NCBI RefSeq assembly: GCF_000022025.1
Contig: NC_011886.1
Location: 4,071,209 to 4,135,208, forward strand
From: Pseudarthrobacter chlorophenolicus A6
GTDB taxonomy: Bacteria; Actinomycetota; Actinomycetes; Actinomycetales; Micrococcaceae
Length of the DNA: 64,000 bases
Direction: 5' to 3'
Shown: in pieces, positions 10,721-50,530 of the stretch
How positions within the stretch are numbered: position 1 is the stretch's first letter
Layout: each line of letters begins with the position of its first letter
Program-made: the position numbers and the translations under genes
The notes under the pieces: generated by a model
What the model was told of the DNA's origin: nothing
Database searches by the model: none
The model's input: the letters and a program-made list of their open reading frames with translations, nothing else

Positions 10721-10741
10721 CTTTTTATGCCCTGCCGGAAC

Positions 10742-14302: not shown

Positions 14303-14321
14303 CAGTATGCGCTCCTGCTCA

Positions 14322-14360
14322 CATAAGATAAAGCGATCTTTTCCAACTAATACAGGTTAG
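14322..14360. promoter_or_regulatory. putA upstream element shared with the permease gene
   Basis: This 39-nt stretch aligns without gaps to 16116-16154 upstream of the APC permease, with 26 of 39 identical bases, including CAT-AGATAAAG. Both lie upstream of minus-strand genes in the same orientation. A binding site for the LysR regulator at 16174 or a common promoter is the simplest explanation. Confidence 0.5.
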
Positions 14361-14407
14361 GAAAACCAACCAATTAACCAGCCGATCAACGGGTCCTTAA
14401 ATGCCGG

Positions 14408-14519
14408 CGGCAGGCGCCCCACCCTCCCGGTTGCTCTATCACTTTTGGTCCTCAAAAGGGCTGTTTAGGGACCAAAAGTGATCGGGCAACGCGGGGTTTG
14501 CATGGTGGGACGCCTGCCG
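14408..14519. repeat. long imperfect palindrome downstream of the permease
   Basis: Three nested inverted pairs can be read: CGGCAGGCGCCCCACC (14408) with GGTGGGACGCCTGCCG (14504), one mismatch; GTTGC (14430) with GCAAC (14486); and ATCACTTTTGGTCC (14438) with GGACCAAAAGTGAT (14469), perfect with a 17-nt loop. It could act as the permease terminator, but its size and AT-rich core are unusual for this genome and suggest an interspersed palindromic element. Confidence 0.6.
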
Positions 14520-14556
14520 GCGGCTGGAGAACGGGTGGGAGTGACGCTCCCGCGGG

Positions 14557-35954: not shown

Positions 35955-37357
35955 TTGACGTTGCCCTGACTGAGACGCCAGTCCAGGAACCGCAGCGTAT
36001 CCGCGGCCTTGAAATGCCGTGGAACCGGGTCATGGGCAGCCTCGAAGGACCCGCCAGCGCAGCCAAGGCCCTGGGTCCGTGGCATCCGCAGGAGTTCATG
36101 GCCGAATGCGTCGAGACCGTTCCCGAAGCGGGCGGCATGATGACGTTCGTGTTCCGCCGCTGCGACGGGGCGCCCCTGGCGTTCCGCGCGGGCCAGTACG
36201 TGAACATTGCCTTCCCCGTGAACGGCGAAGACCAGGAACCGGTGGACCGCAGCTACTCGCTGTCCAGTTCACCCACGGAGCCGTGGACCTTCAGCGTCAC
36301 CGTCAAGAAGGACGCCGGCGGACTGGTTTCACCGTGGGTGCATGAGAACGTCAGGCCCGGTACGGTCCTGGACATGCTGGGCCCCGTGGGCGCGTTCCAC
36401 CTGCCTGATGCGGACCGGCGCGCACGGTACCTTTTCCTGGCGGCCGGCGCGGGCATCACGCCGATCATGTCGATGCTGCGGACCATTCACGACCTGCCCG
36501 GGACCGCTGACGTGGTGGTCCTCTACCACGGTGCGGAAGCCGGAGGCTTTGCCTTCCACAAGGAGCTGGCCTACATCGCGTCCGTGGACTCGCGCGTCAA
36601 GGTCTTCTACGCCCTGGGTGACCGCGGCCTGCCCGAGGAGTGGGAAGGGTTCAAGGGCCGGTTGTCCGCGGCGATGATCGACGAGGTGGCTCCCGACGCC
36701 AACGGCCGGCAGGTCTACGCCTGCGGCCCGGAGGGTTACCTGAACACCGCTACCGAGCTGCTCAAGAAGGTAGGCGTCGACGATACCTCCATCTACATGG
36801 AGTTCTTCTCGGGTGACCGGCAGACCCTCCTGGAGTACCAGGCGGAGCTGGCGCTGGCAGCGGACATTGCCGAAGAAATCGCCGAGGAGATCGCCGATTC
36901 CGCCGAGGACTACTACGAAAGCCAGCCTGCGGCGTTCGGCATGTACGAGCCGGGCTACGACGAGGACGGTACGCTGCAGGCCACCGGCATGCCGCTTGAA
37001 GCGGTGGACCCGGACGCTCCGGCCGCAGAGACCACCGGCACCACGCCCGAAACCAGCGCACCCGACGCGTCCAACTTCGACACCGTGGGAACCGGCAGCC
37101 TAACGCTGTCCTTCATGCGCACCGGCATCAATGTGCGGATCGACCCGGAGCTCCCCATCCTCGAGGTGGCACAGCGTGCGGGTGTCCGGATCGGCGCCAA
37201 CTGCAAGGAGGGCATGTGCGGTTCCTGCAAGGTGGTCAAGCTGTCCGGTGAGGTGGACATGAACCACCAGGGCGGCATCCGCAAGCGGGAAATCGACGCC
37301 GGCAAGTTCCTGCCTTGCTGCTCCACCGCGCGCACGGACATGGTCATCGACGCGTAG
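35951..37357 (+). CDS. gbcB: glycine betaine monooxygenase, ferredoxin reductase subunit
   Basis: 468 aa. Domains in order: FAD-binding (about 50-150, VDRSYSLSSSP), NAD(P)-binding (about 155-275, FLAAGAGITPIMSML), an acidic Glu/Asp/Ala/Pro-rich linker of about 75 residues (roughly 300-380), and a plant-type 2Fe-2S ferredoxin (about 380-468) with GANCKEGMCGSCKVVKLSG and CCSTART. It passes electrons from NAD(P)H to GbcA. The linker between the reductase and ferredoxin parts is longer than needed and is noteworthy. Confidence 0.92.
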   Translation: MIDVALTETPVQEPQRIRGLEMPWNRVMGSLEGPASAAKALGPWHPQEFMAECVETVPEAGGMMTFVFRRCDGAPLAFRAGQYVNIAFPVNGEDQEPVDRSYSLSSSPTEPWTFSVTVKKDAGGLVSPWVHENVRPGTVLDMLGPVGAFHLPDADRRARYLFLAAGAGITPIMSMLRTIHDLPGTADVVVLYHGAEAGGFAFHKELAYIASVDSRVKVFYALGDRGLPEEWEGFKGRLSAAMIDEVAPDANGRQVYACGPEGYLNTATELLKKVGVDDTSIYMEFFSGDRQTLLEYQAELALAADIAEEIAEEIADSAEDYYESQPAAFGMYEPGYDEDGTLQATGMPLEAVDPDAPAAETTGTTPETSAPDASNFDTVGTGSLTLSFMRTGINVRIDPELPILEVAQRAGVRIGANCKEGMCGSCKVVKLSGEVDMNHQGGIRKREIDAGKFLPCCSTARTDMVIDA

Positions 37358-37419
37358 CCCCCGCTGCGCCCATCCATGACTGAACCCGAACCGCTGCACC
37401 AAAACTGCCAATAGCTGTC

Positions 37420-37461
37420 CCACGGAAGGTCTGATGCAACCAAGCGTCAGGCCTTCCGTGG
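37420..37461. other. hairpin between gbcB and fdhA
   Basis: Arms CCACGGAAGGTCTGA and TCAGGCCTTCCGTGG pair over 15 positions with one G-U and a 12-nt loop. There is no T-run and fdhA starts 32 bases later, so it may tune readthrough or mRNA stability rather than end the transcript. Confidence 0.6.
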
Positions 37462-37492
37462 CAATCGGAACACCAACCAAAGGAGAACGCCC

Positions 37493-38704
37493 ATGTCAGG
37501 TAACAAAGCCGTTGCGTACAAGGAGCCCGGGGTCGTCGAAATCATCGACACCCCCTACCCCACCTTTGAACTGCAGGCCGGCCCCGGCGTCAACCCCATC
37601 AACGTTGGCCGGAAGGTCCCGCACGGGGTCATCCTGCGCACCGTGAGCACCAACATCTGCGGCTCGGACCAGCACATGGTCCGCGGCCGCACCACCGCCC
37701 CGGCCGGCCTCGTGCTGGGGCACGAAATCACCGGTGAAGTCATTGAGGCCGGGCCGGATGTCGAGTTCATCAAGGTGGGGGACATTGTCTCAGTCCCCTT
37801 CAACATCTCCTGCGGCCGCTGCCGGAACTGCAAGGAACGCAAGACCGGAATCTGCCTGAACGTGAACCCGGACCGTCCCGGTTCCGCCTATGGCTACGTG
37901 GACATGGGCGGCTGGGTGGGCGGCCAGGCCGAGTACGTGCTGGTCCCCTACGCCGACTGGAACCTGCTGCGGTTCCCTGACCGGGACCAGGCCCTTGAGA
38001 AGATCATGGACCTGACCATGCTCTCGGACATCCTGCCCACCGGCTTCCACGGCGCCGTCACCGCAGGCGTGGGCGTCGGTTCCACCGTGTACGTTGCCGG
38101 AGCGGGACCTGTGGGCCTCGCCGCCGCCGCCAGCGCCCAGCTGCTGGGTGCCGCGGTGGTCATCGTCGGTGACCTCAACGAGGACCGTCTGGCCCAGGCC
38201 CGGTCCTTCGGCTGCGAAACTGTCAACGTGGCCAACGGCGATCCCGCAGACCAGATCGAACAGATCCTCGGCGTCCGTGAAGTGGACTCCGGAATCGACG
38301 CGGTCGGTTTCGAAGCCCGCGGACACGGACACGGGGCGCAGGAAGCACCGGCCACGGTACTCAATTCGCTGATGGACCTCACCACCGCCGGCGGGTCCGT
38401 GGGCATCCCGGGCCTGTACGTCACCGGGGACCCGGGCGCCACGGACGAGGCCGCCAAGAAGGGCAGCCTGTCCCTCTCGCTGGGCACCGGCTGGGCAAAA
38501 TCCCTCTCCTTCGCCACCGGCCAGTGCCCGGTGATGAAGTACAACCGGCAGCTGATGATGGCCATCCTGCATGACCGGATCCACATCGCCAAGGCCGTCA
38601 ACGCCACGGCCATCCCGCTGGAGGACGCACCCCGGGGTTACGCGGAGTTCGACGCCGGCGCAGCCACGAAGTACGTCCTGAACCCGAACGGCTACCTCAA
38701 CTAA
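37493..38704 (+). CDS. fdhA: glutathione-independent formaldehyde dehydrogenase
   Basis: 403 aa, ATG with AAAGGAG. A zinc alcohol dehydrogenase-type protein with catalytic zinc ligands in NICGSDQHMV and GHEITGEV, the structural-zinc cluster CGRCRNCKERKTGIC, and a Rossmann motif VAGAGPVGLAAAASAQLLGA. The length and the PHGVILRTVSTNICGSD region match the dismutating/glutathione-independent FdhA of Pseudomonas. It would remove the formaldehyde released by glycine betaine demethylation, in the same direction just after gbcB. Confidence 0.9.
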   Translation: MSGNKAVAYKEPGVVEIIDTPYPTFELQAGPGVNPINVGRKVPHGVILRTVSTNICGSDQHMVRGRTTAPAGLVLGHEITGEVIEAGPDVEFIKVGDIVSVPFNISCGRCRNCKERKTGICLNVNPDRPGSAYGYVDMGGWVGGQAEYVLVPYADWNLLRFPDRDQALEKIMDLTMLSDILPTGFHGAVTAGVGVGSTVYVAGAGPVGLAAAASAQLLGAAVVIVGDLNEDRLAQARSFGCETVNVANGDPADQIEQILGVREVDSGIDAVGFEARGHGHGAQEAPATVLNSLMDLTTAGGSVGIPGLYVTGDPGATDEAAKKGSLSLSLGTGWAKSLSFATGQCPVMKYNRQLMMAILHDRIHIAKAVNATAIPLEDAPRGYAEFDAGAATKYVLNPNGYLN

Positions 38705-38732
38705 GCCCACCCGGCTTAGGCCCCACGCAGCA

Positions 38733-38781
38733 AAGGAAGGGCCGACGTCGGCGCATACAGCGCCGTCGTCGGCCCTTCCTT
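38733..38781. terminator. terminator after fdhA
   Basis: Arms AAGGAAGGGCCGACGTCGGCG and CGCCGTCGTCGGCCCTTCCTT pair over 21 positions with one mismatch and a 7-nt loop. The right arm shares GCCGTCGTCGGCCCTTCC exactly with the hairpin at 34216-34258. Confidence 0.85.
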
Positions 38782-38843
38782 GTGGGTTATTCGCGGTGAG
38801 AGCCCTGCTGTGTTCCCTACGCATTAATCAAACCGGGGCTGCG

Positions 38844-38859
38844 AGCCTCGATCGAGGCT
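38844..38859. repeat. 16-bp perfect palindrome downstream of the SDR gene
   Basis: AGCCTCGATCGAGGCT has no loop. It lies between the fdhA terminator and the 3' end of the first catabolic-island gene (minus strand). It could help terminate that transcript, or be an unrelated site. Confidence 0.4.
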
Positions 38860-38912
38860 ACCTCCCCGCGGCAGGAATGCTGCCGTTCCGGGGCCTGAGT
38901 GGCATGGGCTTC

Positions 38913-39704
38913 TTAGGGTTTGGAACTGGGCCGGCCGGGAATGTGGCTAAGAATGGATTTGGAGAAACCACCGTCGACGCAGATGTCTTGACCGGTGACG
39001 TAGCCGGACAGCGGCCCAACAAGGAATTCGATCACATTCGCGATGTCCGCGGGGTCCCCGATTCGTGCCAAGGGAATAATACCTTCCCTTGCTTTCTTGA
39101 TCTGCGGATCGGCATACATTTTCTCGGTCATTCGTGTGTGGGTCATGCCCGGGGACACCACGTTGACGCGAATTCCTTCGGGCGCCCATTCCAAGGCAAG
39201 AGTCTGGGCCAGCATGGTAAGTGCAGCCTTGCTGGGGCTGTAGGCCCCGGACCCGGCATGTGGCAGCTGGCCGGACATTGACGAAGTGAAGCAGGCCGAA
39301 CCGCGGCTCTCTTTCAGGTGCGGGTAGCTTGCTTTGGCAAGGAGCCAGGCGCCGCGGAGGTTGACGGAGAACATGCTGTCCCAGTCTTCTATGGATAGAT
39401 CGCATATTTGACCTGGGTTTGCTATTCCGGCGTTTGCGATGAGCGCGTCCAGTCCGCCGAATTCTGCCACGGCAGCTGCTACCAGCCGGCCCGGAACGTC
39501 AGGGTCGCCGAGGTCACCGGACAGTGCGATGGCGGTGCCTCCCATCGACTGAATCGAGCGGACGACCTGCTCTTGGCCGTTGTTAAGCTCGTTTCCGCAT
39601 ACGGCAATCATCGGCTTCTCGCCGCGGGCGAGTGCCGCTTCTGTGATTCGCAGGCAGGTCGCTGCCCCTATGCCGCTGCTTCCACCGCTGACCAAAGCCC
39701 TCAT
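38913..39704 (-). CDS. SDR-family oxidoreductase
   Basis: 263 aa. Classical SDR motifs: GGSSGIGAATCLRI (cofactor), ALIANAGIANPG, and the catalytic Ser-Tyr-Lys in SSMSGQLPHAGSGAYSPSKA. The C-terminal DICVDGGFSKS is standard. It is the last gene of the minus-strand arm of the LacI-linked island, behind a TIM-barrel gene. It probably oxidises or reduces a hydroxyl of a sugar-like intermediate. Base composition of this gene and the next is somewhat lower in GC than the flanks. Confidence 0.85.
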   Translation of the reverse strand: MRALVSGGSSGIGAATCLRITEAALARGEKPMIAVCGNELNNGQEQVVRSIQSMGGTAIALSGDLGDPDVPGRLVAAAVAEFGGLDALIANAGIANPGQICDLSIEDWDSMFSVNLRGAWLLAKASYPHLKESRGSACFTSSMSGQLPHAGSGAYSPSKAALTMLAQTLALEWAPEGIRVNVVSPGMTHTRMTEKMYADPQIKKAREGIIPLARIGDPADIANVIEFLVGPLSGYVTGQDICVDGGFSKSILSHIPGRPSSKP

Positions 39705-39789
39705 GGCACCTACTCCTTCTGACAGGGATCCGTTGGGATCACCTGGACTTAGTTTGTTTTTGACAGTTCGCGATGACGCTGGTTTTGCG

Positions 39790-40602
39790 TCACGTTGCCA
39801 GGTCCCAGCCGTGGTTAGCGAGGTCGTTCATCGCCTTCTTGAATTCCTGCACCGGGTTTTCTTCACGGATGATCTCGAGAACAACGTTGCCGATGCCGCA
39901 GGTTTCGCGGACGGCTTTGCCTAGTCCGTTCCAGTCGATGATTCCGGTGCCGATCGGATCGTGGCCCCAGGTTTCCGTTCCCGTGTCGGAGATGTGGATA
40001 AGTCCGATCGATTCGTGGTGGGCGAGTAAACCGTCGACGGGGTCCTCGCCGATGTATGCGGCGTTGGCGACGTCGTAGACGATCTTGACGGCGTCGTCGT
40101 TGATTGTGCTGATTACGCCGGCCAGGTCCTGGATAGTGGGAGTGAAGCAGTATGGGGTGTTCTCGAACAGAAGGCGGGTGCCTGCCTGCTTGGCCATCGG
40201 GATGAGCGTCTCCAGGCTTTCGTACATCCAGGCATAAACGTTGTCGAGTGCGGGGGAGATCATCGGGCGTCTTGTGCCGGGGGAGATCACAACTTCGCGG
40301 ACGTCCCAGGCTTCGGCAAGGTCGATCACCTGCTTTATGTGCTCGACACTCTTGCGGCGCATATTGGCACCAGGGCTCGCGAGGTTGATGTCGTATCCCC
40401 CGGCATTCAGCGACCTGATCTTGGCGCCGTAGTCCTTGAGCCGCGCACGCATAGCTGAGCGCTCCTGGGCTGTGATCTCATCCGGCCAACAATGCGGCGA
40501 ACTGACCGGCACTTCAAAGGCCTGATATCCGTTGGCGGCCAGCTCAGCGATCGCATCAATTGCCGTAGTTGACCAGAGATAGGAAAAAGTATTGATAATC
40601 AT
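39790..40602 (-). CDS. sugar phosphate isomerase/epimerase (xylose-isomerase-like TIM barrel)
   Basis: 270 aa. The four metal-ligand positions of AP-endonuclease-2/XylE-type barrels are visible: LLFENTPYCFTP (Glu), VKIVYDVANAA (Asp), GLIHISDTGTE (His), NVVLEIIREE (Glu). This fold covers isomerases, epimerases, dehydratases and 3-keto-glycoside lyases. It precedes the SDR gene by 85 bases. The exact reaction is unknown. Confidence 0.82.
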   Translation of the reverse strand: MIINTFSYLWSTTAIDAIAELAANGYQAFEVPVSSPHCWPDEITAQERSAMRARLKDYGAKIRSLNAGGYDINLASPGANMRRKSVEHIKQVIDLAEAWDVREVVISPGTRRPMISPALDNVYAWMYESLETLIPMAKQAGTRLLFENTPYCFTPTIQDLAGVISTINDDAVKIVYDVANAAYIGEDPVDGLLAHHESIGLIHISDTGTETWGHDPIGTGIIDWNGLGKAVRETCGIGNVVLEIIREENPVQEFKKAMNDLANHGWDLAT

Positions 40603-40707
40603 CTGGGGCGTCTCTCAGTTCTGTGCCAATAGAGGTGTTGTGCTGATTTCATAAGGCGAAGTGGATCTCGATCCTCGTGGTGGATCGGGCAGAGATCTGG
40701 CTGGCCC

Positions 40708-40756
40708 GGCGGCTCGAAAGGGCGGGCTGCGTGCAATGTCGCCCGTTCGAGCCGCC
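40708..40756. terminator. hairpin downstream of the MHS transporter gene
   Basis: Arms GGCGGCTCGAAAGGGCG and CGCCCGTTCGAGCCGCC pair over 17 positions with one mismatch, 15-nt loop. It lies 18 bases past the transporter stop on the minus strand, so the transporter may be transcribed apart from the TIM-barrel/SDR pair. Confidence 0.75.
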
Positions 40757-40774
40757 AAGCCCTCCTGTGGACCA

Positions 40775-42199
40775 CTATGGCTGCCGCGAGCGATTCGCTT
40801 CGTCAGTCGCTGGCGAAACGCCATGGAGCAGGTGTTCGCCTTCGAGGACTTCAGCGTCGGCAATGCCGACCGTGGCACGGCCGGCCCGGCTGCCGGTCTC
40901 CGGAAGAGTGAAGTAGACGACGAGGCAGACGGCGACGATGGCGATCATGTAGACCGCGACGAGCATGGGCTGTCCAGCGCCGACGAAGGCGGCGGCGATC
41001 AGTGGCGCCGTGCCGCCGAAGACGGCAATCACGATCTGGTGTGCGAAACCGATGCCGGAGACACGAACAGAGGCGGGGAAGAGTTCGGCCTGGATTGTCG
41101 GGTAGACGGCCTGCCAGATTCCGAGGACGACCCAACCGGAGGCTGATACCAGAACGTAGACGCCGAAGCCCGGCTGGTTCAGGAGCAGGAGCAAGGGGTA
41201 GAAGAGAACGATCATGCCGATGGCGCCGATGATGGGGAAGATCTTGCGGCGGCCCAGCCGGTCGGAAAGGTATCCGCAGACAGGCACGATGACGACCAGC
41301 AGGGCCAGTCCGATGACGCTCCCGGCCAGGGTGGAAGAGAGATCGCGGCCCGTGGTCAGCTTGGCATAGGTGGGAAGGAAGGTGGCCCAGGTGTAGTAGG
41401 CCACGGCCGGGGCAGAGAGGGCTGCGGCCTGCAGCAGCGCCTTGGGGTGTTCGCGAAGCAGGTCCAGCAGGCGTGCAGCGGCGGACTTTTGGTCCACGAC
41501 GGCAGTTGCTTCAAACTCCGGCGTCTCTTCAGCCCGGGCCCTCAGAATGAGCCCGACGACGCCGAGGATGCCTCCGGCGACGAACGGGATGCGCCAACCC
41601 CAGGCGGCCAGGTCCTCCGGGGTAAAGGCGGACGTCACCATTGCCGCGGCGCCGGTTGCTGCGAGGGTCGCCAGGCCGCTCGCCATGTTGGAGAACGAAC
41701 CGAACAGGCCCCGGCGGTTTGCGGGGGCGTGCTCAACCATGAAGGCAATGGCGCTCTGCGCCTCACTGCCGGCCGAGATCCCCTGGAGAATGCGCGCCAC
41801 CAGGAACAGGACGGGCGCCGCATAGCCAATGGTGGCAAATGACGGCGTGAGGCCGATGATCAGGGCACCGAGCGCCATCCCGGAGATGGCCAGCGTAAGG
41901 ATGAGCCTTCGGCCGAAACGGTCGGCCAGAGGCGAAACGATGATGCCGCTGAGCGGGCGGACAACAAACCCGACCGCGTAGGTGAGCAGTGCTGCGATGA
42001 GGGAGGCGAACGGTGAATCACTGGGAAATATTTGTGATGAGAACACCGCGGCCAGCAACCCATAGATGTACCAGTCGTACCACTCCACGAAGTGGCCGAT
42101 CGTGCCCGCCACCATATTGAGGTTGCGGCGTGGGCGCTCTGGCACTTCGGTCAGCTCCGAAGAGTCTGGACTGCCAACAGCTTCTTTTGAGGTCTTCAT
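40775..42199 (-). CDS. MFS transporter, metabolite:H+ symporter (MHS) family
   Basis: 474 aa from the ATG at 42199, which has GGAGAG five bases upstream; in-frame starts at 42211 and 42280 are possible. The opening AGTIGHFVEWYDWYIYGLLA is the MHS signature, and LADRFGRRLILTLAISGMA the MFS motif A. MHS members import organic acids or zwitterions (citrate, alpha-ketoglutarate, shikimate, proline/betaine) with protons. Three LacI-type operators lie 100-155 bases upstream, so it is the likely entry point for the island's substrate, which suggests an acidic compound. Confidence 0.85.
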   Translation of the reverse strand: MKTSKEAVGSPDSSELTEVPERPRRNLNMVAGTIGHFVEWYDWYIYGLLAAVFSSQIFPSDSPFASLIAALLTYAVGFVVRPLSGIIVSPLADRFGRRLILTLAISGMALGALIIGLTPSFATIGYAAPVLFLVARILQGISAGSEAQSAIAFMVEHAPANRRGLFGSFSNMASGLATLAATGAAAMVTSAFTPEDLAAWGWRIPFVAGGILGVVGLILRARAEETPEFEATAVVDQKSAAARLLDLLREHPKALLQAAALSAPAVAYYTWATFLPTYAKLTTGRDLSSTLAGSVIGLALLVVIVPVCGYLSDRLGRRKIFPIIGAIGMIVLFYPLLLLLNQPGFGVYVLVSASGWVVLGIWQAVYPTIQAELFPASVRVSGIGFAHQIVIAVFGGTAPLIAAAFVGAGQPMLVAVYMIAIVAVCLVVYFTLPETGSRAGRATVGIADAEVLEGEHLLHGVSPATDEANRSRQP

Positions 42200-42299
42200 T
42201 GAACTCTCCATATTTTCACGTTTTCTGCGGAGGGTATTGGACTGTTTCCGCACTGCCCCGGCTTTAGTAGGACGAAGCATTCTTCGGTTGTTTCACCGA

Positions 42300-42353
42300 T
42301 GAGATCGGTTGCATTTTACGCGACGCTGAGATCGGTTGCTGAGATCGGTTGCA
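42300..42353. promoter_or_regulatory. three LacI-type operators upstream of the MHS gene
   Basis: TGAGATCGGTTGCA at 42300-42313 and 42340-42353 and TGAGATCGGTTGCT at 42327-42340. They fit the LacI-family pattern TGnnAnCGnTnnC. The last two copies are head-to-tail with a 13-bp period. The same sequence recurs at 43713-43739 in the other orientation. Confidence 0.8.
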
Positions 42354-42405
42354 AGCAAGACTACGTAGGGCTGCCAACCCTGTCAATGGGCAATTTTCTC
42401 TGGTT

Positions 42406-42966
42406 TCAGCTGCCGCAGATGTCCCGCATACCCAGCGGCTTTTCGTTGTCAACGTCAAGGAAATGGACCCCGGACCAAGTGCAGTCCAGGCTGCCGTATG
42501 AGGCCCAGTACTCGTCCCAGTGTGCAAGCTTCCACCGGTCCCGCTCCAGGCCGCGCTGGCTTATCCGTTCCCGAAGGATCTCCGGCGGGACACGCACTCG
42601 CACCACCACAGTCTCCACGGGGGGCCAGTGAAACTCTTCGGCAGCGCCCGTCAGGTAATCAGGCATGGCGAAGTATGCACCGAAGGGTGCATCGATGACG
42701 ACGGATCGCCCCAGCCGAAGATTCGCTCCCGCGACATCCATAAGCGTCCCGTACTCCAGGGGCAAAACGTTCTCCCGGTAATACGCGTTGGACTCCCGGT
42801 CAGTGGGATCGTGCCCTGCTGCCGTCAAGGCAAACTCGACCAAGCGGCCGCAGAGCCGGTCCTTGTCCAGATAGGCTGCGGCATGCTCCTCTGCCGTCTG
42901 CTGGGCGATGGTGGTCTTTCCGGAGCCGGCGGGACCTATGACAATGAAGACTTTGGGAGTCGTCAT
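42406..42966 (-). CDS. P-loop ATPase/small-molecule kinase-like protein (gluconokinase fold)
   Basis: 186 aa. Walker A is IGPAGSGKTTIAQQTA near the N terminus and a lid-like region RERISQRGLERDRWK lies at about 135-150. This is the plan of gluconokinase/shikimate-kinase-type P-loop kinases. Its ATG overlaps the aldolase stop (ATGA), so the two are coupled. A role phosphorylating a keto-deoxy sugar acid before aldol cleavage is plausible but inferred only from the neighbour. Confidence 0.7.
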   Translation of the reverse strand: MTTPKVFIVIGPAGSGKTTIAQQTAEEHAAAYLDKDRLCGRLVEFALTAAGHDPTDRESNAYYRENVLPLEYGTLMDVAGANLRLGRSVVIDAPFGAYFAMPDYLTGAAEEFHWPPVETVVVRVRVPPEILRERISQRGLERDRWKLAHWDEYWASYGSLDCTWSGVHFLDVDNEKPLGMRDICGS

Positions 42967-43610
42967 TGACGGGCCTTTTCCACTGCCGCGAGGAACTCAC
43001 GGGCAGCCTCGGTAACGCGTGAGAAGTCCCCGTCCGGCTGCCATGCTTTTGTCACAGCACTGCCGACGCCAACGCCCGCCACGCCGGCGGCGAACCATTC
43101 GGCGACATTTTCAGGGGTAACGCCGCCTGCCGGCATGATCGGCAGGTGCGCCAGTGGCGCAAGAACCGACTTCGCGTAGGGGATACCGCCGGCTTCGGTG
43201 GGGAACAGCTTGAGGATGTCAGCGCCGGCCTCTGCAGTCTCAACAAGTTCCGTGGGCGTATACGCGCCACTGATGGTGGGCACCTGGTACCGGTTGGCCA
43301 GCCGGATCATTGATCGGTTCAACTGGGGACTGACCAGGAACTCTGCGCCGGCACGGATGCACTCGTAGGCCGAATGCTCGTCCAGGACCGTTCCAGCCCC
43401 CACCGCGACTCCCTTGGGCCCGTGCTTGGCAGAGAGCCGACGGATCACGTCCACTGCACCGGGGATCGAGAGCGTGATTTCAAGGGCTTTGAATCCGCCG
43501 GCGATGGCTGCCTCTGCCACTCGCTCTGCGAGGTCTTCATTCTCGAGGCGCACGATGAGGACGGCGCCTGAATGGTGAATTGTTTCGAGGGTACGGAGTT
43601 TTTTGTACAT
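42963..43610 (-). CDS. KHG/KDPG-type aldolase
   Basis: 215 aa from ATG 43610 with AGAAAGG upstream; a longer frame reaches 43730 but would cover the operators. The Schiff-base lysine is in ADILKLFPTEAGG and the catalytic Glu in GGFKALEITLSIPGA. It cleaves a 2-keto-3-deoxy (phospho)sugar acid or 4-hydroxy-2-oxoglutarate to pyruvate and an aldehyde. Translational coupling to the P-loop kinase suggests a phosphorylated substrate. Confidence 0.87.
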   Translation of the reverse strand: MYKKLRTLETIHHSGAVLIVRLENEDLAERVAEAAIAGGFKALEITLSIPGAVDVIRRLSAKHGPKGVAVGAGTVLDEHSAYECIRAGAEFLVSPQLNRSMIRLANRYQVPTISGAYTPTELVETAEAGADILKLFPTEAGGIPYAKSVLAPLAHLPIMPAGGVTPENVAEWFAAGVAGVGVGSAVTKAWQPDGDFSRVTEAAREFLAAVEKARQ

Positions 43611-43712
43611 TGCTGGCCTTTCTTCTGGCCCGGGCAACTTCCGTGTTCCGGAGGATCCCTGAACCACTGTTGAAGTGTCGTTGACAAACTCTCCCACCAT
43701 CCATACTGTTAT

Positions 43713-43739
43713 TGCAACCGATCTCAGCAATCGATCTCA
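43713..43739. promoter_or_regulatory. two LacI-type operators between the divergent arms of the island
   Basis: On the minus strand TGAGATCGGTTGCA (43713-43726) and TGAGATCGATTGCT (43726-43739), head-to-tail. They lie between the aldolase (minus) and the first dehydrogenase (plus), so one pair can control both divergent arms, including the LacI gene itself. Confidence 0.8.
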
Positions 43740-43761
43740 TACTTAGCAAAGGGGCTGGCAG

Positions 43762-44745
43762 ATGAGTAGACCACGCACCATCATCCTTGGCGCTTCCCAC
43801 TGGCACGTCCCGCTTTGTACACGGGCGATCGGGGAGGAACACAACGTTGTCGGGATCAGCGACGAGGACGTATCGCTCGTACGGGGACTTGCGGACGCCT
43901 GGAATGCCCCGGTAGAAGCGGACTGGCGCAACCTGGTCGACCTGCCGAACCTCGGGCTTGCCTATGTCTTTGGCCCACACAATGGCATGGCGGAAAAATG
44001 CTTTGCGCTGATTGAACGTGGCATTCCGCTTGTGGTGGAGAAGCCCCTTGGCACTTCCCTGTCCGAGCTTGCCAGGGTACGGGAAGCTGCGGAAGCGGCC
44101 GGCGTGCCGGTGACGGTCCCCCTGGTTCAGCGGGACGGCCCCGTTGACCGCTGGCTTGCCAAGGCGGGCCGTCCGACGTACCAGAGGGCATCCTTCGTCG
44201 CCGGGCCGCCCTCGCGCTACCTGCATAACGGCAATCCCTGGATGCTCGATCCTGTTGCGGCGGGGGGTGGCTGCCTTGCGAATCTGGCACCGCATTTTGT
44301 CGATCTGTTCCTGCAGGGCAGCAACGAGTCCGCAGACACAGTGGATTCCAGGCTCTCCTCCGTTCTGCACGGTGCGGATATTGAGGACCATGCCAGTCTT
44401 ATCGTCACCACCACGGGCGGGCGTGAGGCCATCATTGAGGTGGGGTACGCATTCCCGAATTCGCCGTTGAAGCGCTACTGCAGCTTCACGTCGGCGGGCG
44501 AGGCCGGCTTCGCCTCCATCAATTCAGACGGTTCTGCAACGTTCACTTCAGAGGCCGGGATAACGGAATCCGCCATGATCAACGTCGACAGCGACCCCCT
44601 CTACGACGCGTTCGTACGCCGGGTCGCGGAAACGCTGGAAGATGGATTCCAGGGACTGCCAACGCTGGCCCAGCTCGAAGACGCGATGCGCCCGATTTGG
44701 CAGGCGTATGACCACCACGGAGGAACAGAAGATGGCCGACCTTAG
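43762..44745 (+). CDS. Gfo/Idh/MocA-family oxidoreductase
   Basis: 327 aa. The family motif is IPLVVEKPLGTSL (EKP at about 96-98). The N-terminal nucleotide-binding loop reads LGASHWHVPL, which departs from the usual GxGxxG, so cofactor affinity may be altered. A second domain of about 200 residues follows. It is the first gene of the plus-strand arm. Typical members oxidise a sugar hydroxyl to a keto group with NAD(P)+. It overlaps the next gene by 14 bases. Confidence 0.8.
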   Translation: MSRPRTIILGASHWHVPLCTRAIGEEHNVVGISDEDVSLVRGLADAWNAPVEADWRNLVDLPNLGLAYVFGPHNGMAEKCFALIERGIPLVVEKPLGTSLSELARVREAAEAAGVPVTVPLVQRDGPVDRWLAKAGRPTYQRASFVAGPPSRYLHNGNPWMLDPVAAGGGCLANLAPHFVDLFLQGSNESADTVDSRLSSVLHGADIEDHASLIVTTTGGREAIIEVGYAFPNSPLKRYCSFTSAGEAGFASINSDGSATFTSEAGITESAMINVDSDPLYDAFVRRVAETLEDGFQGLPTLAQLEDAMRPIWQAYDHHGGTEDGRP

Positions 44746-45727
44746 TATTGACGTTGTCGCGAAGGCGGCCGGAGTCCACCGCTCAACGGTTTCCCGGGCG
44801 TTCTCCCGGCCAGAGGCGGTAAAGAGCGAAACCAGGGAGCACATTCTCCGCGTCGCCGAAGGGCTCGGTTACACGATGAGCCCGCTCGCCCAGGCGTTGC
44901 GGCGGAAGACCAGCACTTTCGTCCCTCTGATTGTTCCGGACATCACCAACCCGTTCTTTGCAGAGCTGGCCAAGACCATGACGCAGGCCGCTGATGAGCG
45001 TGGCTACCAGCTGTTGCTCTGTGTCACGAACGGAGACCCTGCCAAGACCGACGGGTACTTCACGGCGATGCAGGCCATGTACGCCCCCTTTGGAATCGTC
45101 GCCCCTTCGACGAAAGTCGATACCGATGCCCTCAAGCGCTTCGATTTCGGTCACCGGGTCGTAGTGATCGACCGCGTGGAAGGCGACACCTCGGTTCCCA
45201 CGGTGACAGTCGACAGCCGCCGCGGCATCATCCTCGCACTGGAGCACCTGCGTTCCCTGGGCCACACCTCGATCGGCTATGTCTCCGGCATCTCCGGGAC
45301 CCACACGGCCCAGGACCGGATGGACGCGTACCTGGAACTGTCAGCGGAAGGCGGCAACTCGCCGGTGGTTCTCGACAGCGGCTCCGACCCGGACACCGGG
45401 GCACGCGCAGCACAGCACTTTCTGGAGATGGACAATCCCCCGACGGCGATCATCGCCGCCAATGACATGGTCGCCTTCGCGGTGATCTCGGCCCTTGGCA
45501 AGAGCGGTATTCGCGTGCCGGAGGACGTCTCTGTCATGGGGTTCGACGGTCTGGCGCTGGGCGCCCGGTTCAACCCCGCCCTGACAACAGTACGGCAGCC
45601 GATTGCTGACATGGGAAACATTGCCATCGAGCTGGCAGAAAAACAGAACCTGAACGGATCAGTAGACCACGTCGTCCTGGAACCTGAACTCCTGGTACGC
45701 GCCTCCACCTCAGGGCCGCGCAAATGA
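44732..45727 (+). CDS. LacI-family transcriptional regulator
   Basis: 331 aa from ATG 44732 (longer frame to 44642 rejected because the HTH must be N-terminal). HTH: SIDVVAKAAGVHRSTVSRAF; the effector domain starts FVPLIVPDITNPFFAELAKT and includes TAIIAANDMVAFAVISAL. It sits within the plus-strand arm and overlaps both neighbours. Five operator copies of LacI type in the island are its probable targets, including its own transcript. Confidence 0.92.
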   Translation: MADLSIDVVAKAAGVHRSTVSRAFSRPEAVKSETREHILRVAEGLGYTMSPLAQALRRKTSTFVPLIVPDITNPFFAELAKTMTQAADERGYQLLLCVTNGDPAKTDGYFTAMQAMYAPFGIVAPSTKVDTDALKRFDFGHRVVVIDRVEGDTSVPTVTVDSRRGIILALEHLRSLGHTSIGYVSGISGTHTAQDRMDAYLELSAEGGNSPVVLDSGSDPDTGARAAQHFLEMDNPPTAIIAANDMVAFAVISALGKSGIRVPEDVSVMGFDGLALGARFNPALTTVRQPIADMGNIAIELAEKQNLNGSVDHVVLEPELLVRASTSGPRK

Positions 45728-46296
45728 CCGGAACCAGCACAAAGACCCTGCGCAGGCTGCCTGGGCTCCGGCACACCGACCATGTCGGCCTGACGGTTCC
45801 CAATCTTGACGAGGCCATCACGTTCTTCGTCGAGGTACTCGGTGCCGAGGAGCTGTACCGCTCTGACCGCGGACCCGACGCCGAGTTCATGCCCACGAAC
45901 TTTGATGTCCCTGCGGACGCCCGGCTCACCTTGGCGATGCTGCGGCTGCCACCGAACCTTAATATCGAGCTTTTCGAATGGAGCAGCGCTGAGCGGCGGG
46001 AAACCCCGCCGCGGCATTGCGACGCAGGCGGGCACCACCTGTGCTTCGTCGTCGACGATGTGGACGAAGCGGTCGCCGTCCTGCAGGAAACCCCTGGAGT
46101 ACGCGTGCTCGGCGAGCGCAAGGAAGTCGCAGGCGACAGTCCCCGCGTCGCCGGCAACCGCTGGACATACTTCGTCACCCCTTGGGGGCTGCTGATGGAA
46201 ATCGTCGATCGATCCCGCGTCGCAGCCCCACCCCGCCTGGTCGGTCCCACGGACTGGGCGGCACCAACACACACTTCCACGAAGGACGATCAATAA
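45724..46296 (+). CDS. VOC-family protein (glyoxalase/dioxygenase fold)
   Basis: 190 aa, ATG overlapping the LacI stop (ATGA). Metal-site positions are visible as HTDHVGLTVPNLDEAITFF (His), GHHLCFVVDDVDEAVAVL (His) and TPWGLLMEIVD (Glu). The fold covers isomerases, epimerases, lyases and extradiol dioxygenases. In this operon it most likely acts on a keto-sugar-like intermediate. Its stop shares one base with the next start (TAATG). Confidence 0.8.
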   Translation: MTGTSTKTLRRLPGLRHTDHVGLTVPNLDEAITFFVEVLGAEELYRSDRGPDAEFMPTNFDVPADARLTLAMLRLPPNLNIELFEWSSAERRETPPRHCDAGGHHLCFVVDDVDEAVAVLQETPGVRVLGERKEVAGDSPRVAGNRWTYFVTPWGLLMEIVDRSRVAAPPRLVGPTDWAAPTHTSTKDDQ

Positions 46297-47195
46297 TGCG
46301 ACTGGCAGGCCACACCCTCGGCACTCCGGACCACACGGTCCCCCAGGCACTCAGGCTGTTTCGAGCCGCTGGCCTCGACGCCGCGGAAGTCATTTACCAG
46401 GACGACTACAAATCAGGACTCCCCCAACGGGACCGCCGCGCCGCCCTTGACGCGCTTAAGGCCGCGGACGATGAGGGCCTGCCCATCATCGGCTTGACGC
46501 CGTACACCACGTCCATCAACTCCCTGGACGAGCGTGAATGGCGCAGCGGAGTCGACGAATTCAGGGGCGCGATCGAAACCGCGCATCTGCTCGGCGCCGA
46601 CAGGGTCCGCGTTTACGCGGGATCCTGGCACCCAGGGGACGCCGACCACGCCGCGCGTTGGGCGAAACTGCGGGACGCCCTCCAGACCCTGGCACCTGAG
46701 GCTGCACAGGCCGGCGTACGCCTCTGCGTGGAGAACCATTTCGGCACCATGACCCAGACGGCCGCTGAAACCGCGGCGCTCGTCCGCGAAGTCGCCCACC
46801 CCGCCGTCCGTGTCCTCTACGACCAGACGAACCTGACCTTCACCCACGACGAAACGTTCGAACAGGCCTTTGAAGTTCAAGGCGGACTGATCGGTCACGT
46901 GCACGTCAAGGACCTGGTGTTCACCGACTCCTCAGCGACCTTCCGCGCAACGGAAACGGCCCGCGTTAACGCCTCCGAGCGTTCCGTCCGGTCGCGGGTC
47001 ATCGGAACCGGCATTCTTCCTTGGCGGGAGATCCTCGCTGCGCTCCTGCGCCACGGCTACGACGATCTGCTGAGCATTGAGTACGAGTACCGGTGGCACC
47101 CGCAAGACCTCCCGAGCCCGGAGGAAGGGTTCCGGGAATCCGCGGCCGCCCTGCGAACGATGCTCGCCGATCTCGCTGAGGTGAAGGCACGATGA
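46296..47195 (+). CDS. sugar phosphate isomerase/epimerase (xylose-isomerase-like TIM barrel)
   Basis: 299 aa from ATG 46296. Metal ligands: RLCVENHFGTM (Glu), VRVLYDQTNL (Asp), GHVHVKDLVF (His), LLSIEYEYRWHP (Glu). It is only distantly like the other barrel at 39790, so they probably catalyse different steps. It is tightly packed between the VOC and the second Gfo/Idh/MocA gene. In known Gfo/Idh/MocA plus TIM-barrel pairs the barrel isomerises or beta-eliminates a 3-keto product. Confidence 0.82.
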   Translation: MRLAGHTLGTPDHTVPQALRLFRAAGLDAAEVIYQDDYKSGLPQRDRRAALDALKAADDEGLPIIGLTPYTTSINSLDEREWRSGVDEFRGAIETAHLLGADRVRVYAGSWHPGDADHAARWAKLRDALQTLAPEAAQAGVRLCVENHFGTMTQTAAETAALVREVAHPAVRVLYDQTNLTFTHDETFEQAFEVQGGLIGHVHVKDLVFTDSSATFRATETARVNASERSVRSRVIGTGILPWREILAALLRHGYDDLLSIEYEYRWHPQDLPSPEEGFRESAAALRTMLADLAEVKAR

Positions 47196-48199
47196 CCGCT
47201 CAGCGACTACGCGTCGGCGTCATCGGCGCGGGAAAAATTGCCTCCATCGCCCAACTGCCCACCCTGGTACAACGGAACGATGTTGAACTGGTTGCACTGG
47301 TCTCCCGTCAAGAGGACCCCGGGCACCTGGTCCGCCGCTGGGGTTTCGGCGCCGCCTATCGATCGGTTGAAGACATGCTTGCCGCTCAGGACCTGGACGC
47401 CGTCTTTGTCCTCACCCCGCGCTCGGAGCACGCGCACGCCGTCAAGCTTTGCCTTGAAAACGACATCGACGTGTTCTGCGAAAAACCCCTGGCCCCGGAA
47501 ACCGACGAAGCAGAACGGTTGGCTGACCTCGCCGAGGAACGTGGCCTGATCCTGATGGTGGACTTCAACCGCCGCTACGCACCCGTCTACACGGCCGGGC
47601 GTGATGCGTTTGGGGAGAAGGGCGCTACGTTCTGCGTCGCCCAGAAGAACCGGCCCGGATCCGAGTACCGCGCGACGTTCGAGAACGCCATTCACATGGT
47701 CGACCTGCTGCGCTGGTACTGCGGCGGCGAACCCGTGGACGTCTCTGCGCATGCGGCCGGGGAGGACCCCTGGGAGGAAGACGGCGTCGCTGCCATCATC
47801 CGCTTCAGCACCGGTAACACCGGAGTGCTGATGGCAGCCCGGACCGCAGGTGCCTGGAACGAAAAACTGGACGCCTACGGCCACGGAAAAACCGTGGAAG
47901 TGCGTGCCCCCGAGGCAGTGTCGACCACTATCAGCGGAGTCACCACATCACGCGAACTCAGCGCCGAAGCCTACGGGTGGGCCACGGCAACCGACACGCT
48001 GGGCTTCTCCGCCGCAGTCCACCATTTCCTCGATCGCGTCGCCGACAGAGCCGAACCCCTCACGTCGGGCCGCGAGGCCGTTCAGACCCAGCGGCTGCTC
48101 GATCGGATCCTCGCCGCCTCTGGGTTGCCCGCTGAAGAACAGGAAGGCCGGTTATGGCAGAGTCACGCCACGCAGCCAGTGAGCGGAGGCACCAAATGA
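47192..48199 (+). CDS. Gfo/Idh/MocA-family oxidoreductase
   Basis: 335 aa, ATGA overlap with the barrel gene. Standard Rossmann motif VGVIGAGKIASIAQLP and EKP motif DVFCEKPLAPETDEAERL, then VDFNRRYAP. It lacks the odd nucleotide loop of the paralogue at 43762. It should oxidise a ring or chain hydroxyl of a polyol or sugar derivative with NAD(P)+. Its stop overlaps the next ATG. Confidence 0.85.
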   Translation: MTAQRLRVGVIGAGKIASIAQLPTLVQRNDVELVALVSRQEDPGHLVRRWGFGAAYRSVEDMLAAQDLDAVFVLTPRSEHAHAVKLCLENDIDVFCEKPLAPETDEAERLADLAEERGLILMVDFNRRYAPVYTAGRDAFGEKGATFCVAQKNRPGSEYRATFENAIHMVDLLRWYCGGEPVDVSAHAAGEDPWEEDGVAAIIRFSTGNTGVLMAARTAGAWNEKLDAYGHGKTVEVRAPEAVSTTISGVTTSRELSAEAYGWATATDTLGFSAAVHHFLDRVADRAEPLTSGREAVQTQRLLDRILAASGLPAEEQEGRLWQSHATQPVSGGTK

Positions 48200-48945
48200 G
48201 CCTCAAGGATCAAGTGGTCCTGGTGACCGGATCAAGTGGAGGCATCGGTGATGCCGTTATCGATGCGCTCAAAGTCGAGGGAGCCCTCGTGATCGGCGCC
48301 GACCGCGCCGCCAAAGAGGGCCAGGACCTGGCCGCCTTCTTCCCGCTCGACGTCACCTCCGAAGAGCAGTGCGCCTCCGTCGTCCGCGACATCACAAGCA
48401 AGTACGGGCGCATCGACGCACTCATTCACGCCGCCGGTATCCTCGGCGCCACCCCGGACATCATGGAAACCACCACGGAAGAATACGAAACCGTGATGCG
48501 GATCAACGCCTCCGGCACGTTCTCCATGGTCCGGGAAACGGCACAGTCAATGATGGCGTCCGGGACCGCCGGTGCCATCATCATCCTTTCCTCGGTCGCG
48601 GCGAAGGAAGCCCGCAGCAATTACCTGCCGTACAACTCGAGCAAGCTTGCCGTGCTTCACATCATGTGGTCCTTCGCCGAAATACTCGGACCCCATGGAA
48701 TCTCCGTTAACGCGATCGCACCGGGCCCGGTCAACACCCCCATGTGGGCCCAATTCGCCAAAGACTCCGGCCCCGATGCCGTCGCCAACCGAGCCAAACG
48801 CGCCGCGCAACTTCCCATGCGCCGCTTCGCCGAACCCGACGAGGTCGCCCGCGCCATCCTCTTCCTAGCCGACCCTGACAACCGCTACATCACCGGCGTG
48901 AGCTTGGACGTGGCAGGCGGCGCGCACCTCGGCATAGGGTCCTGA
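48196..48945 (+). CDS. SDR-family oxidoreductase
   Basis: 249 aa from ATG 48196 (ATGA overlap; the frame opens further back at 48154). Motifs: VTGSSGGIGDAVIDAL (cofactor), LIHAAGILG, catalytic Ser in IIILSSVAAKEA and YNSSKLAV. The end GVSLDVAGGAHLG is typical. It is the last gene of the plus arm. Two hundred bases of gene-free DNA follow before the convergent NtaA-type gene. Confidence 0.87.
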   Translation: MSLKDQVVLVTGSSGGIGDAVIDALKVEGALVIGADRAAKEGQDLAAFFPLDVTSEEQCASVVRDITSKYGRIDALIHAAGILGATPDIMETTTEEYETVMRINASGTFSMVRETAQSMMASGTAGAIIILSSVAAKEARSNYLPYNSSKLAVLHIMWSFAEILGPHGISVNAIAPGPVNTPMWAQFAKDSGPDAVANRAKRAAQLPMRRFAEPDEVARAILFLADPDNRYITGVSLDVAGGAHLGIGS

Positions 48946-49147: not shown

Positions 49148-50521
49148 TCAGGCCCGGACCGCCCCGGACGGCTGGTCCGCGGTGCGCACCGGTGTCTCCA
49201 ACCCGAGGTTTTCGCGCAGGGTGCTGCCGCGGTACTCCGTGGGGTACACGCCGCGTTCCTGCAGCTCCGGCACCAGGTGGTTGACGATGTCATCCAGTCC
49301 GGTGGGAACCAGCCACGGCGAGATGTTGAACCCGTCCACCGCACCCGTCCGGGCATACTCGGCCAGGTGGTCCGCCACGGCCGTGTAGGAGCCGGTGAAC
49401 GTGGCGTCGATCCGCGCCGTCTTGGAGGTGACGAACTGGCGGATGGACAGGCCCTTGTCCTTGGCCTCGGCACGCCACTGGTCCGCGAGCTGACGGGCCT
49501 TGGCACCGTGGAAGCCGCTGCCGCGGGTCTCGGACGTCTCCTCCACCACGGGGTCGATCTCCGGCAGCGGACCGTCGGGATCGTACTCGGACAGCTCGCG
49601 GCCCCAGAACTGCTCCAGGTAGGCCACAGCCTGCTGCGGCCCGATCTGCAGGCTCCGCACCCACTCCTTCTTTTCCGCAGCCTCTTCGGCTGTGGCAGCG
49701 AGGATGAATTCGCTGGCCGGCATGATCTGCACGGCATTCGCGCCGCGGCCCGCCGCCACCGAACGCTCCACGAGGTCCTTGCGGAACTCCACGGCGTCGT
49801 CGAACTTGGGGTGGGCGGAGAAGATCACGTCCGCCTGGCGGGCGGCGAAGTTCCGTCCCTCGGGCGAATCCCCGGCCTGGAACAGCACCGGCCGGTACTG
49901 CGCACTGCGCGGCAGGCGCGGAGTCACGTCCACCGTGTAGTGCTGCCCTTCGTGGAGCACGCGGCGGGCCGGGCCGGCGGGGCTCTCCCAGGAGTCCCAG
50001 ATCCGCTTGGCCGTCTCCACGAACGCTTCGGCGTGCCTGTACCGGTCGGCATGGTCAAGGTAGCCGCCGCGGCGGAAGTTCGCACCGGTCCACGCGTTGT
50101 CCGTGGTGACGATGTTCCAGGCGGCACGGCCGCCGGAGATCAGGTCCAGCGAGGCAAGCCGGTGGGCCAGGTCCGCCGGATCGTTGTAGGTGGTGTTCTG
50201 GGTGGCTACCAGTCCGATGTTCCTGGTCACCGAAGCCAGCGCGGCCAGCATGGTCTGCGCATCCGGCCGGCCCACCACGTCCAGGGCGTGCGGGCGGCCC
50301 AGGTGCTCACGCAGGCGAAGTCCCTCCCCCAGGAAGAACGCCGCGAACAGCCCGCGCTCGGCGGTCTGGGCGATGCGGCGGAAGGATTCAAAGTCGGTCT
50401 GCGAACCGGATTCTGCCGCCTTCCAGATGGTGCCGGAATTGACGCCCTGGAAGAAGATGCCGAACTGGATCTGGCCGGTGGGCTGGAAGACGTCGGATTT
50501 AGCACGGTTGTGCTGTGTCAT
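49148..50521 (-). CDS. NtaA/SnaA/DmoA-type FMN-dependent monooxygenase
   Basis: 457 aa. Full-length LLM barrel of the NtaA/SnaA group: IQFGIFFQGVNSGTIW, SGGRAAWNIVTTDN, AKRIWDSWE, and the FMN-phosphate region FQAGDSPEGRNFAARQADVI. Such enzymes cleave C-N or C-S bonds of aminopolycarboxylates, sulfonates or S-alkyl compounds with FMNH2 from a separate reductase. It is the last gene of the seven-gene minus-strand operon. A flavin reductase gene is not present in the operon. Confidence 0.9.
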   Translation of the reverse strand: MTQHNRAKSDVFQPTGQIQFGIFFQGVNSGTIWKAAESGSQTDFESFRRIAQTAERGLFAAFFLGEGLRLREHLGRPHALDVVGRPDAQTMLAALASVTRNIGLVATQNTTYNDPADLAHRLASLDLISGGRAAWNIVTTDNAWTGANFRRGGYLDHADRYRHAEAFVETAKRIWDSWESPAGPARRVLHEGQHYTVDVTPRLPRSAQYRPVLFQAGDSPEGRNFAARQADVIFSAHPKFDDAVEFRKDLVERSVAAGRGANAVQIMPASEFILAATAEEAAEKKEWVRSLQIGPQQAVAYLEQFWGRELSEYDPDGPLPEIDPVVEETSETRGSGFHGAKARQLADQWRAEAKDKGLSIRQFVTSKTARIDATFTGSYTAVADHLAEYARTGAVDGFNISPWLVPTGLDDIVNHLVPELQERGVYPTEYRGSTLRENLGLETPVRTADQPSGAVRA

Positions 50522-50530
50522 GGTTTTTCC

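Follow-up and report, generated by a model that had tools for sequence, protein, structure and literature searches.

What compound does an island of eleven genes in Pseudarthrobacter chlorophenolicus A6 break down, and through which intermediates? The island lies at positions 38913-48945 of the window (the whole stretch of 64,000 nucleotides analysed here) and, according to the open reading frame (ORF) table and to Pfam and NCBIfam scans, consists of two divergent arms. From the centre outwards, the minus arm encodes an aldolase (ALD), a P-loop kinase-like protein (KIN), an MHS-like importer, a xylose-isomerase-like TIM barrel (TIM1), and a short-chain dehydrogenase (SDR1). The plus arm encodes, in order, a Gfo/Idh/MocA dehydrogenase (GFO1), a LacI-family regulator, a VOC protein, a second TIM barrel (TIM2), a second Gfo/Idh/MocA dehydrogenase (GFO2), and a second short-chain dehydrogenase (SDR2). 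An earlier reading of the sequence (the original prediction) had named these families, each of which was recovered by the scans, but had counted ten genes where eleven are found. With confidence slightly better than even, we favor a route, repressed by LacI and encoded on a self-contained mobile island, that degrades a polyhydroxylated and probably acidic compound via a 2-keto-3-deoxy acid; which class of substrate is used and how the middle steps are ordered are speculative.

A recurrent but rare gene set

GFO1 was searched for in 295 Micrococcaceae genomes (E 1e-20) and was present in 10 of them, our genome included, from 4 of 32 genera. When GTDB representatives were scanned for GFO1, four loci emerged (P. 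chlorophenolicus, Specibacter cremeus, and two Streptomyces); matches occurred in 2 of 295 genomes of a genus taken as Streptomyces, and GFO2 was found in four plasmid records. The loci compared were 20-kb stretches around the family matches, two stretches from the genus taken as Streptomyces, and plasmids of Herbiconiux and Rhodococcus. L020 and L024 represent a single contig, which was counted once, and the counts exclude a Rhodococcus opacus remnant (L084) and Herbiconiux SALV-R1. This left 17 distinct loci, window included, from Micrococcaceae, Streptomyces, Herbiconiux, and Rhodococcus.

KIN, GFO1, LacI, VOC, TIM2, GFO2, and SDR2 are present in all 17 loci. ALD is intact in 16 and split into two frames in the Specibacter draft; the MHS gene is likewise found in 16. 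TIM1 is complete in 12 loci and truncated by a contig end in one further, and SDR1 is present in 13 (the L020 contig ends ahead of it). Because the same set recurs in 17 distinct loci, the eleven genes form a real catabolic module, beyond chance co-location. The original prediction had held as much and had proposed a neighbourhood search, which indeed shows the set to co-occur, with seven genes in every locus. With known genes masked, no further family recurred in more than two of 17 flanking stretches (the 16 loci other than the window, together with L077, which comes from the same genome as L026; E 1e-15, 80 residues), and the gene set thus looks complete. Several of the families shared by two loci resemble transposases or a recombinase by eye.

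In wider genome samples the set is rare. At E 1e-50, GFO2 was matched in 2 of 394 genomes of the class, namely our own and G406, where the context is different; at E 1e-150, the MHS protein was matched in 1 of 396 genomes of the phylum, again our own. Of 7997 candidates scored in a protein collection, 732 are related to GFO2 at E 1e-40. Among the 120 relatives listed are proteins from Pseudarthrobacter, Paenarthrobacter, Arthrobacter, Nocardioides, Streptomyces, and Propionibacteriaceae, and among these listed matches the Nocardioides and Propionibacteriaceae proteins show 77-79% identity.

The excluded remnant, from the megaplasmid of R. opacus VOC-14, is an island in decay: GFO1, TIM2, and KIN survive as fragments, GFO2, SDR2, and MHS matches are near full length, and no match to ALD, LacI, or VOC was found there. 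A distant GFO2 relative (40%) lies in another stretch (L071), where it shares an apparent operon at 9654-15956 with a regulator, a sugar-binding protein, a permease, and a PL8 lyase (Lyase_8 208 bits).

Probable mobility of the island

Eight core proteins (seven for G143, with ALD omitted) were compared with a single marker, RpoB identity. Three genomes of the same genus have RpoB 97.5-99.3% identical to that of the window's genome (99.3% in two of them) and core proteins 83-85% identical, whereas genus g24 has RpoB at 92-93% and core proteins at 88-89%. Plasmids of two genera (Herbiconiux and Rhodococcus) also carry the set. Since core identities conflict with RpoB and plasmids bear the genes, there is good sequence evidence for horizontal transfer of the island. 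This mobility is newly described here.

A stereotyped promoter-operator

The intergenic regions between ALD and GFO1 carry two copies of the 13-mer GCAAYCGATCTCA without a gap. The tandem also precedes MHS, where a third copy begins 27 bp past the second. Each 13-mer forms a 14-nt imperfect palindrome, TGnnAnCGnTnnCA, with a central CG, and its sequence is almost identical between loci from several actinobacterial families. Scanning 18 stretches (the 17 loci and L077) gave 26 tandem units and nine single 13-mers, with at least one tandem in each of the 17 loci. TTGAC[AG] starts 33-35 bases upstream of the operator in all 26 tandem units, compared with 0.13% of window positions at that distance; three single sites ahead of MHS (L028-L030) lack the hexamer by eye. 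In the window, TTGACA and TACTGT stand 17 bases apart just upstream of the plus-arm tandem (Table 1), and the operator would therefore cover the presumed start site.

The distribution of the tandem follows that of the cluster. Allowing up to two mismatches, it occurs in 10 of the 295 Micrococcaceae genomes, identical to the 10 with GFO1, and is absent from the other 285; the pattern read backwards gave 0. Among 283 genomes of the order, two carry the tandem, both cluster holders already known. Our genome has five exact 13-mers, all inside the cluster, with three one-mismatch sites elsewhere and one match to the reversed pattern, and each of the 37 exact 13-mers found across nine further cluster genomes lies in the cluster or adjoins it (control, 0).

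The LacI protein has helix-turn-helix and periplasmic-binding-type domains (PF00356, PF13377, and PF00532, all above cut-off). As it is the sole regulator found in all 17 loci, we infer that LacI is the protein that binds the tandem 13-mer. The LacI control claimed at the outset thus gains support from a cluster-specific tandem operator ahead of both arms.

In three stretches (L027, L077, and L083; genomes G252 and G063, and Herbiconiux), a sugar ABC importer follows the same promoter-operator and therefore probably belongs to the regulon. A gene for a third Gfo/Idh/MocA dehydrogenase (GFO3) is present in the same three stretches. On plasmids, GFO3 relatives (E 1e-20) are confined to the two Herbiconiux records and LacI relatives (E 1e-50) to three cluster records. 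An IclR gene occurs in five loci (L021, L022, L031, L082, and L085) and in the L084 remnant (PF01614 99 bits in L021). The operator scan gave no 13-mer for the MHS genes of these five loci, in which one arm may have switched to another regulator. Where read, the IclR gene sits between KIN and MHS. The Herbiconiux locus carries a DeoR-type gene. With a promoter-operator so stereotyped, the regulon looks closed; the promoter-operator itself and the structure and closure of its regulon are new here.

The kinase-aldolase pair

ALD exceeds the cut-offs of both PF01081 (131.9 versus 27.8 bits) and TIGR01182, the eda model (160.5 versus 156.05). In an alignment with Thermotoga-derived chains, a Lys and a Glu, which we take to be the Schiff-base and catalytic residues, are invariant in 16/16 sequences. 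Because a second, better-scoring member of the family of 2-keto-3-deoxy-6-phosphogluconate (KDPG) and 2-keto-4-hydroxyglutarate (KHG) aldolases is encoded elsewhere in the genome (226 versus 132 bits), ALD appears to be a dedicated enzyme. In 15 of the 16 loci where ALD is intact, its stop overlaps a potential start of KIN (ATGA in 11, GTGA in three, and TAATG in one), in agreement with the coupling proposed earlier. KIN exceeds the cut-offs of AAA_33, AAA_18, and CPT; identity as a PfkB-type 2-keto-3-deoxygluconate (KDG) kinase was rejected, as a Pfam scan gave no PfkB match. From family membership and gene coupling, we infer phosphorylation by KIN and cleavage by ALD.

Alternatively, ALD may be of the 4-hydroxy-2-oxoglutarate type and act on a non-phosphorylated keto acid, with KIN off the carbon route, for example phosphorylating the released aldehyde. 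The family is indeed bifunctional (NF005119, 204.7 bits, below the cut-off of 238), and KIN is without a clear sugar-acid kinase relative. The overlap of the two genes in 15 of 16 assessable loci speaks against this arrangement, as do a Gly-Gly and a Ser, presumably the phosphate site, that are invariant in 16/16 sequences, and we consider it highly improbable.

An optional TIM1-SDR1 cassette

Two core holders, G177 and G220, have no TIM1 match at E 1e-10 in their whole genomes, and TIM1 is therefore optional; it was also not found in L081 and L083 within the 20 and 22 kb examined. Thus, the two pairs of TIM barrels and short-chain dehydrogenases recognized earlier are real, but not equally essential, with TIM1 and SDR1 being optional members.

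A plasmid search with TIM1 gave 24 records at E 1e-15, nine of them at 60-80% identity: the Rhodococcus locus and eight from Rhizobium/Agrobacterium at 63-65%. In four annotated records examined from the latter group (L086, L087, L091, and L092), an SDR gene directly follows TIM1, and its product is 76% identical to SDR1 in the two loci compared. Upstream lie genes for an aldo-keto reductase (AKR), a TIM barrel, an AroE-like protein, and a dihydrodipicolinate synthase (DHDPS)-family protein. A further upstream gene carries the annotation 2-keto-4-pentenoate hydratase in three stretches and hypothetical protein in one; its family matches are weak (PF01557 20.1 bits in L087, below cut-off). A sugar ABC importer is present in three of the four stretches, and the 13-mer operator is found in none. 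The plasmid cluster resembles the island in its adjacent TIM1 (~64%) and SDR, the ABC importer of three stretches, and a lyase/aldolase-family gene, but the DHDPS-type, AKR, AroE-like, and putative hydratase genes replace GFO1, GFO2, VOC, TIM2, KIN, and ALD.

The TIM1-SDR1 pair, a feature new here, looks like an adaptor serving two unlike downstream routes, one ending in a DHDPS-type lyase and the other in a kinase and an Eda-type aldolase. Both endings would suit a 2-keto-3-deoxy acid, and this forms the main argument for such an intermediate. The Rhizobium/Agrobacterium cluster itself looks like a catabolic cluster without an assigned pathway; in L092, a nearby operon is annotated oiaX (isoapionate).

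TIM2, VOC, and the dehydrogenases

VOC enzymes of the glyoxalase I/epimerase type have four protein metal ligands: His, Glu/Gln, His, and Glu. In the island VOC protein, His20, Glu82, His104/105, and Glu159 are invariant in 17/17 loci (and in 5/5 sequences of a smaller alignment). Its predicted model reaches a pLDDT (predicted local distance difference test) of only 66, and the top folds mix glyoxalase, dioxygenase, and epimerase. VOC and TIM2 both bear conserved candidates for metal ligands.

Among named pathway models, GFO2 is closest to IolG (98.6 bits) and TIM2 to IolE (49.2 bits). Myo-inositol (iol) catabolism proceeds by oxidation, TIM-barrel dehydration, phosphorylation, and aldol cleavage, a step order that the island could follow on a cyclitol: GFO2 would oxidise a ring hydroxyl (as IolG), TIM2 would dehydrate an inosose-like ketone (as IolE), VOC or an SDR would help to open or rearrange the ring product, and KIN and ALD would act as IolC and IolJ. 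The AroE-like protein encoded beside the TIM1-SDR1 cassette in Rhizobium/Agrobacterium also fits, as AroE relatives act on cyclohexane acids. However, both scores lie far below their cut-offs (355 for IolG and 290 for IolE), no IolB, IolC, or IolD candidate was found in the set by Pfam scan, and the importers are MHS-like or sugar ABC. Assignment to myo-inositol itself was rejected on these scores, and the broader cyclitol route seems unlikely.

A 3-keto-glycoside route is a further alternative, in which one GFO enzyme would oxidise C3 of a glycoside, TIM2 would catalyse beta-elimination, another GFO enzyme would re-reduce the sugar, and the kinase and aldolase would process an acidic aglycone or sugar acid. 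The original prediction had drawn an analogy with levoglucosan degradation, which did not hold: the LgdA equivalog model NF052479 gives 44.7 bits for GFO2 and 24.7 bits for GFO1 against a cut-off of 650, and the assignment was rejected. Moreover, the described four-enzyme routes yield free hexose and use no aldolase, the flanks of the 17 stretches show no recurring glycosidase, and the fold shared by TIM2 does not amount to shared function, with ketose epimerases scoring equal or higher. We regard this route as quite unlikely.

Proposed pathway and its weak points

In the favored pathway, through a 2-keto-3-deoxy acid, LacI would repress both arms by occupying the tandem 13-bp operators where transcription presumably starts, until a pathway compound relieves it. 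The importer (MHS-like, with a sugar ABC system added or substituted elsewhere) would take up a polyhydroxylated, probably acidic compound, whose hydroxyls the Gfo/Idh/MocA and SDR enzymes would oxidise and later re-reduce. TIM2 and VOC may shift protons or eliminate water beside the ketone through metal-dependent enolisation. The resulting 2-keto-3-deoxy acid would be phosphorylated by KIN and split by ALD, as a class I enzyme, into pyruvate and an aldehyde phosphate. A related compound would enter the same core by way of TIM1 and SDR1.

Several observations weigh against this pathway. No member of a classical sugar-acid dehydratase family was found in the conserved set by Pfam scans, so the proposed keto-deoxy acid needs a source that is unproven. 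No sugar-acid kinase model matches KIN above cut-off (gluconokinase 23.5 bits versus 265 and 113.75), and L081, alone among 16 loci, has no ALD/KIN overlap. ALD carries Ala in the P-x-G-G-V segment in 16/16 sequences where Thermotoga-type chains have Thr, and because of this replacement its substrate may not be KDPG. Most LacI-family motifs are palindromes of 16-22 nt (PMC4052901), and the operator is not one of this usual kind. The importer falls short of the MHS subfamily model TIGR00883 (337.4 versus 443.45 bits) while passing MFS_1 and Sugar_tr, and is hence called MHS-like here; the complete Herbiconiux locus L083, one of three with the sugar ABC importer and GFO3, has no MHS gene. The earlier argument that an MHS importer implies an acid is thus weakened, because an ABC importer joins three loci, one of them without MHS.

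A bolder version would turn the missing dehydratase into the novelty. Here, once a Gfo/Idh/MocA enzyme had oxidised a sugar acid or cyclitol, TIM2 and VOC would be able to dehydrate and rearrange it to a 2-keto-3-deoxy acid with no need for a classical sugar-acid dehydratase, KIN would represent a new P-loop family of keto-deoxy-acid kinases, and pathway and switch would travel as one unit between actinobacterial families. Taken whole, this version is possible but doubtful. A set of about ten proteins that is conserved, mobile, and tightly regulated, yet has no assigned substrate, suggests an undescribed breakdown of some compound from soil or plants. The island could also help to assign functions to a family of P-loop kinases and to two groups of PF01261 proteins that are uncharacterised.

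Layout and neighbourhood

Coordinates are collected in Table 1. The overlaps that accompanied the earlier description of divergent arms are seen in the ORF table: ATGA at aldolase/kinase (42963-42966), LacI/VOC (45724-45727), and TIM2/GFO2 (47192-47195), and TAATG at the VOC/TIM2 junction (46296). GFO1 and LacI overlap by 14 bp, given a LacI start at 44732, and GFO2 and SDR2 share ATGA, given an SDR2 start at 48196; with the starts chosen here, all plus-arm neighbours and the aldolase/kinase pair overlap by one to fourteen bases. The four 2-kb bins covering 38001-46000 have the lowest GC content of the window's 32 (0.596-0.632, versus 0.636-0.694 in the other 28).

Table 1. Genes and regulatory elements of the island (window positions).
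Feature	Position	Strand	Evidence
SDR1, short-chain dehydrogenase; optional, paired with TIM1	38913..39704	-	PF13561 186 bits
TIM1, xylose-isomerase-like TIM barrel; optional	39790..40602	-	PF01261 137.7 bits
MHS-like proton symporter; true start maybe ~70 bp downstream	40775..42280	-	TIGR00883 337.4 bits; 16/17 loci
Operators of the MHS-TIM1-SDR1 unit: tandem 13-mers 42327-42352, single 42300-42312; TTGACA 42381-42386	42300..42352	-	
KIN, P-loop kinase-like protein; overlaps aldolase gene	42406..42966	-	AAA_33 65.5 bits; 17/17 loci
ALD, class I KDPG/KHG-type aldolase; ATG at 43610 preferred over TTG at 43730	42963..43610	-	PF01081
Plus-arm promoter-operator: TTGACA 43681-43686, TACTGT 43704-43709, tandem 13-mers 43714-43739	43681..43739	+	
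GFO1, divergent Gfo/Idh/MocA dehydrogenase	43762..44745	+	PF01408 38.4 bits, PF22725 41.1 bits
LacI-family regulator	44732..45727	+	PF00356 38.7 bits, PF13377 111.9 bits; 17/17 loci
VOC, metalloenzyme candidate	45724..46296	+	PF13669; invariant His20/Glu82/His104-105/Glu159
TIM2, ketose-3-epimerase/IolE-like TIM barrel	46296..47195	+	PF01261
GFO2, IolG/MviM-like Gfo/Idh/MocA dehydrogenase	47192..48199	+	PF01408
SDR2, aldose-dehydrogenase-like SDR	48196..48945	+	Family scan

Three genes adjoining the island (34650-38704, plus strand) resemble glycine betaine demethylation: a Rieske oxygenase (GbcA model 392 bits, below the cut-off of 670), a reductase (GbcB model 238, below 500), and a glutathione-independent formaldehyde dehydrogenase (TIGR02819 743 bits, above 637). 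Past the other end lie two luciferase-like flavin monooxygenase genes (49148-51709, minus strand; PF00296), the first of which is retained at 99% in P. chlorophenolicus Mor30.16; by eye, an ORF at 52415-53548 resembles them.

Comparison with known systems

Neither the family combination nor the operator sequence led to a paper on the cluster in the open-licence literature, and the earlier statement that the set matches no named pathway agrees with the lack of any assignment there. As far as the accounts cited go, the closest described routes are levoglucosan degradation (PMC7676230, PMC10066097) and glycoside beta-elimination (PMC10628242). The LgdA-LgdB1-LgdB2-LgdC system of Bacillus smithii and Paenarthrobacter resembles the island in combining Gfo/Idh/MocA enzymes with PF01261 barrels and in occurring in the same soil actinobacterial family. 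Unlike the island, which has no LgdA equivalog, it is outlined as a four-step route that yields glucose and is without kinase, aldolase, VOC, or SDR (PMC7676230).

The iol pathway shares the step logic and the closest named models of GFO2 and TIM2, whereas both scores are far below cut-off, IolB/C/D candidates are lacking, and the island aldolase is Eda-type. Entner-Doudoroff and sugar-acid routes, with KDG kinase and KDPG aldolase, share an Eda-type aldolase coupled to a kinase-like gene; in contrast, the island kinase is a P-loop AAA_33 protein rather than PfkB, and the conserved set has no aldonate or uronate dehydratase.

The dehydrogenase of anhydro-sialic acids, presumably a Gfo/Idh/MocA family member, offers an analogy. 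It acts via keto intermediates as outlined in one account (PMC7315737), and would thus exemplify a Gfo/Idh/MocA-type route that handles acidic sugars.

On the regulatory side, overlapping LacI-family sites set 13 bp apart have precedents: they have been demonstrated for E. coli GntR upstream of gntKU, and a survey finds them before 110 operons (PMC4052901). The island operators are alike in this 13-bp spacing but differ in being contiguous 13-mer direct repeats, each merely a 14-nt imperfect palindrome.

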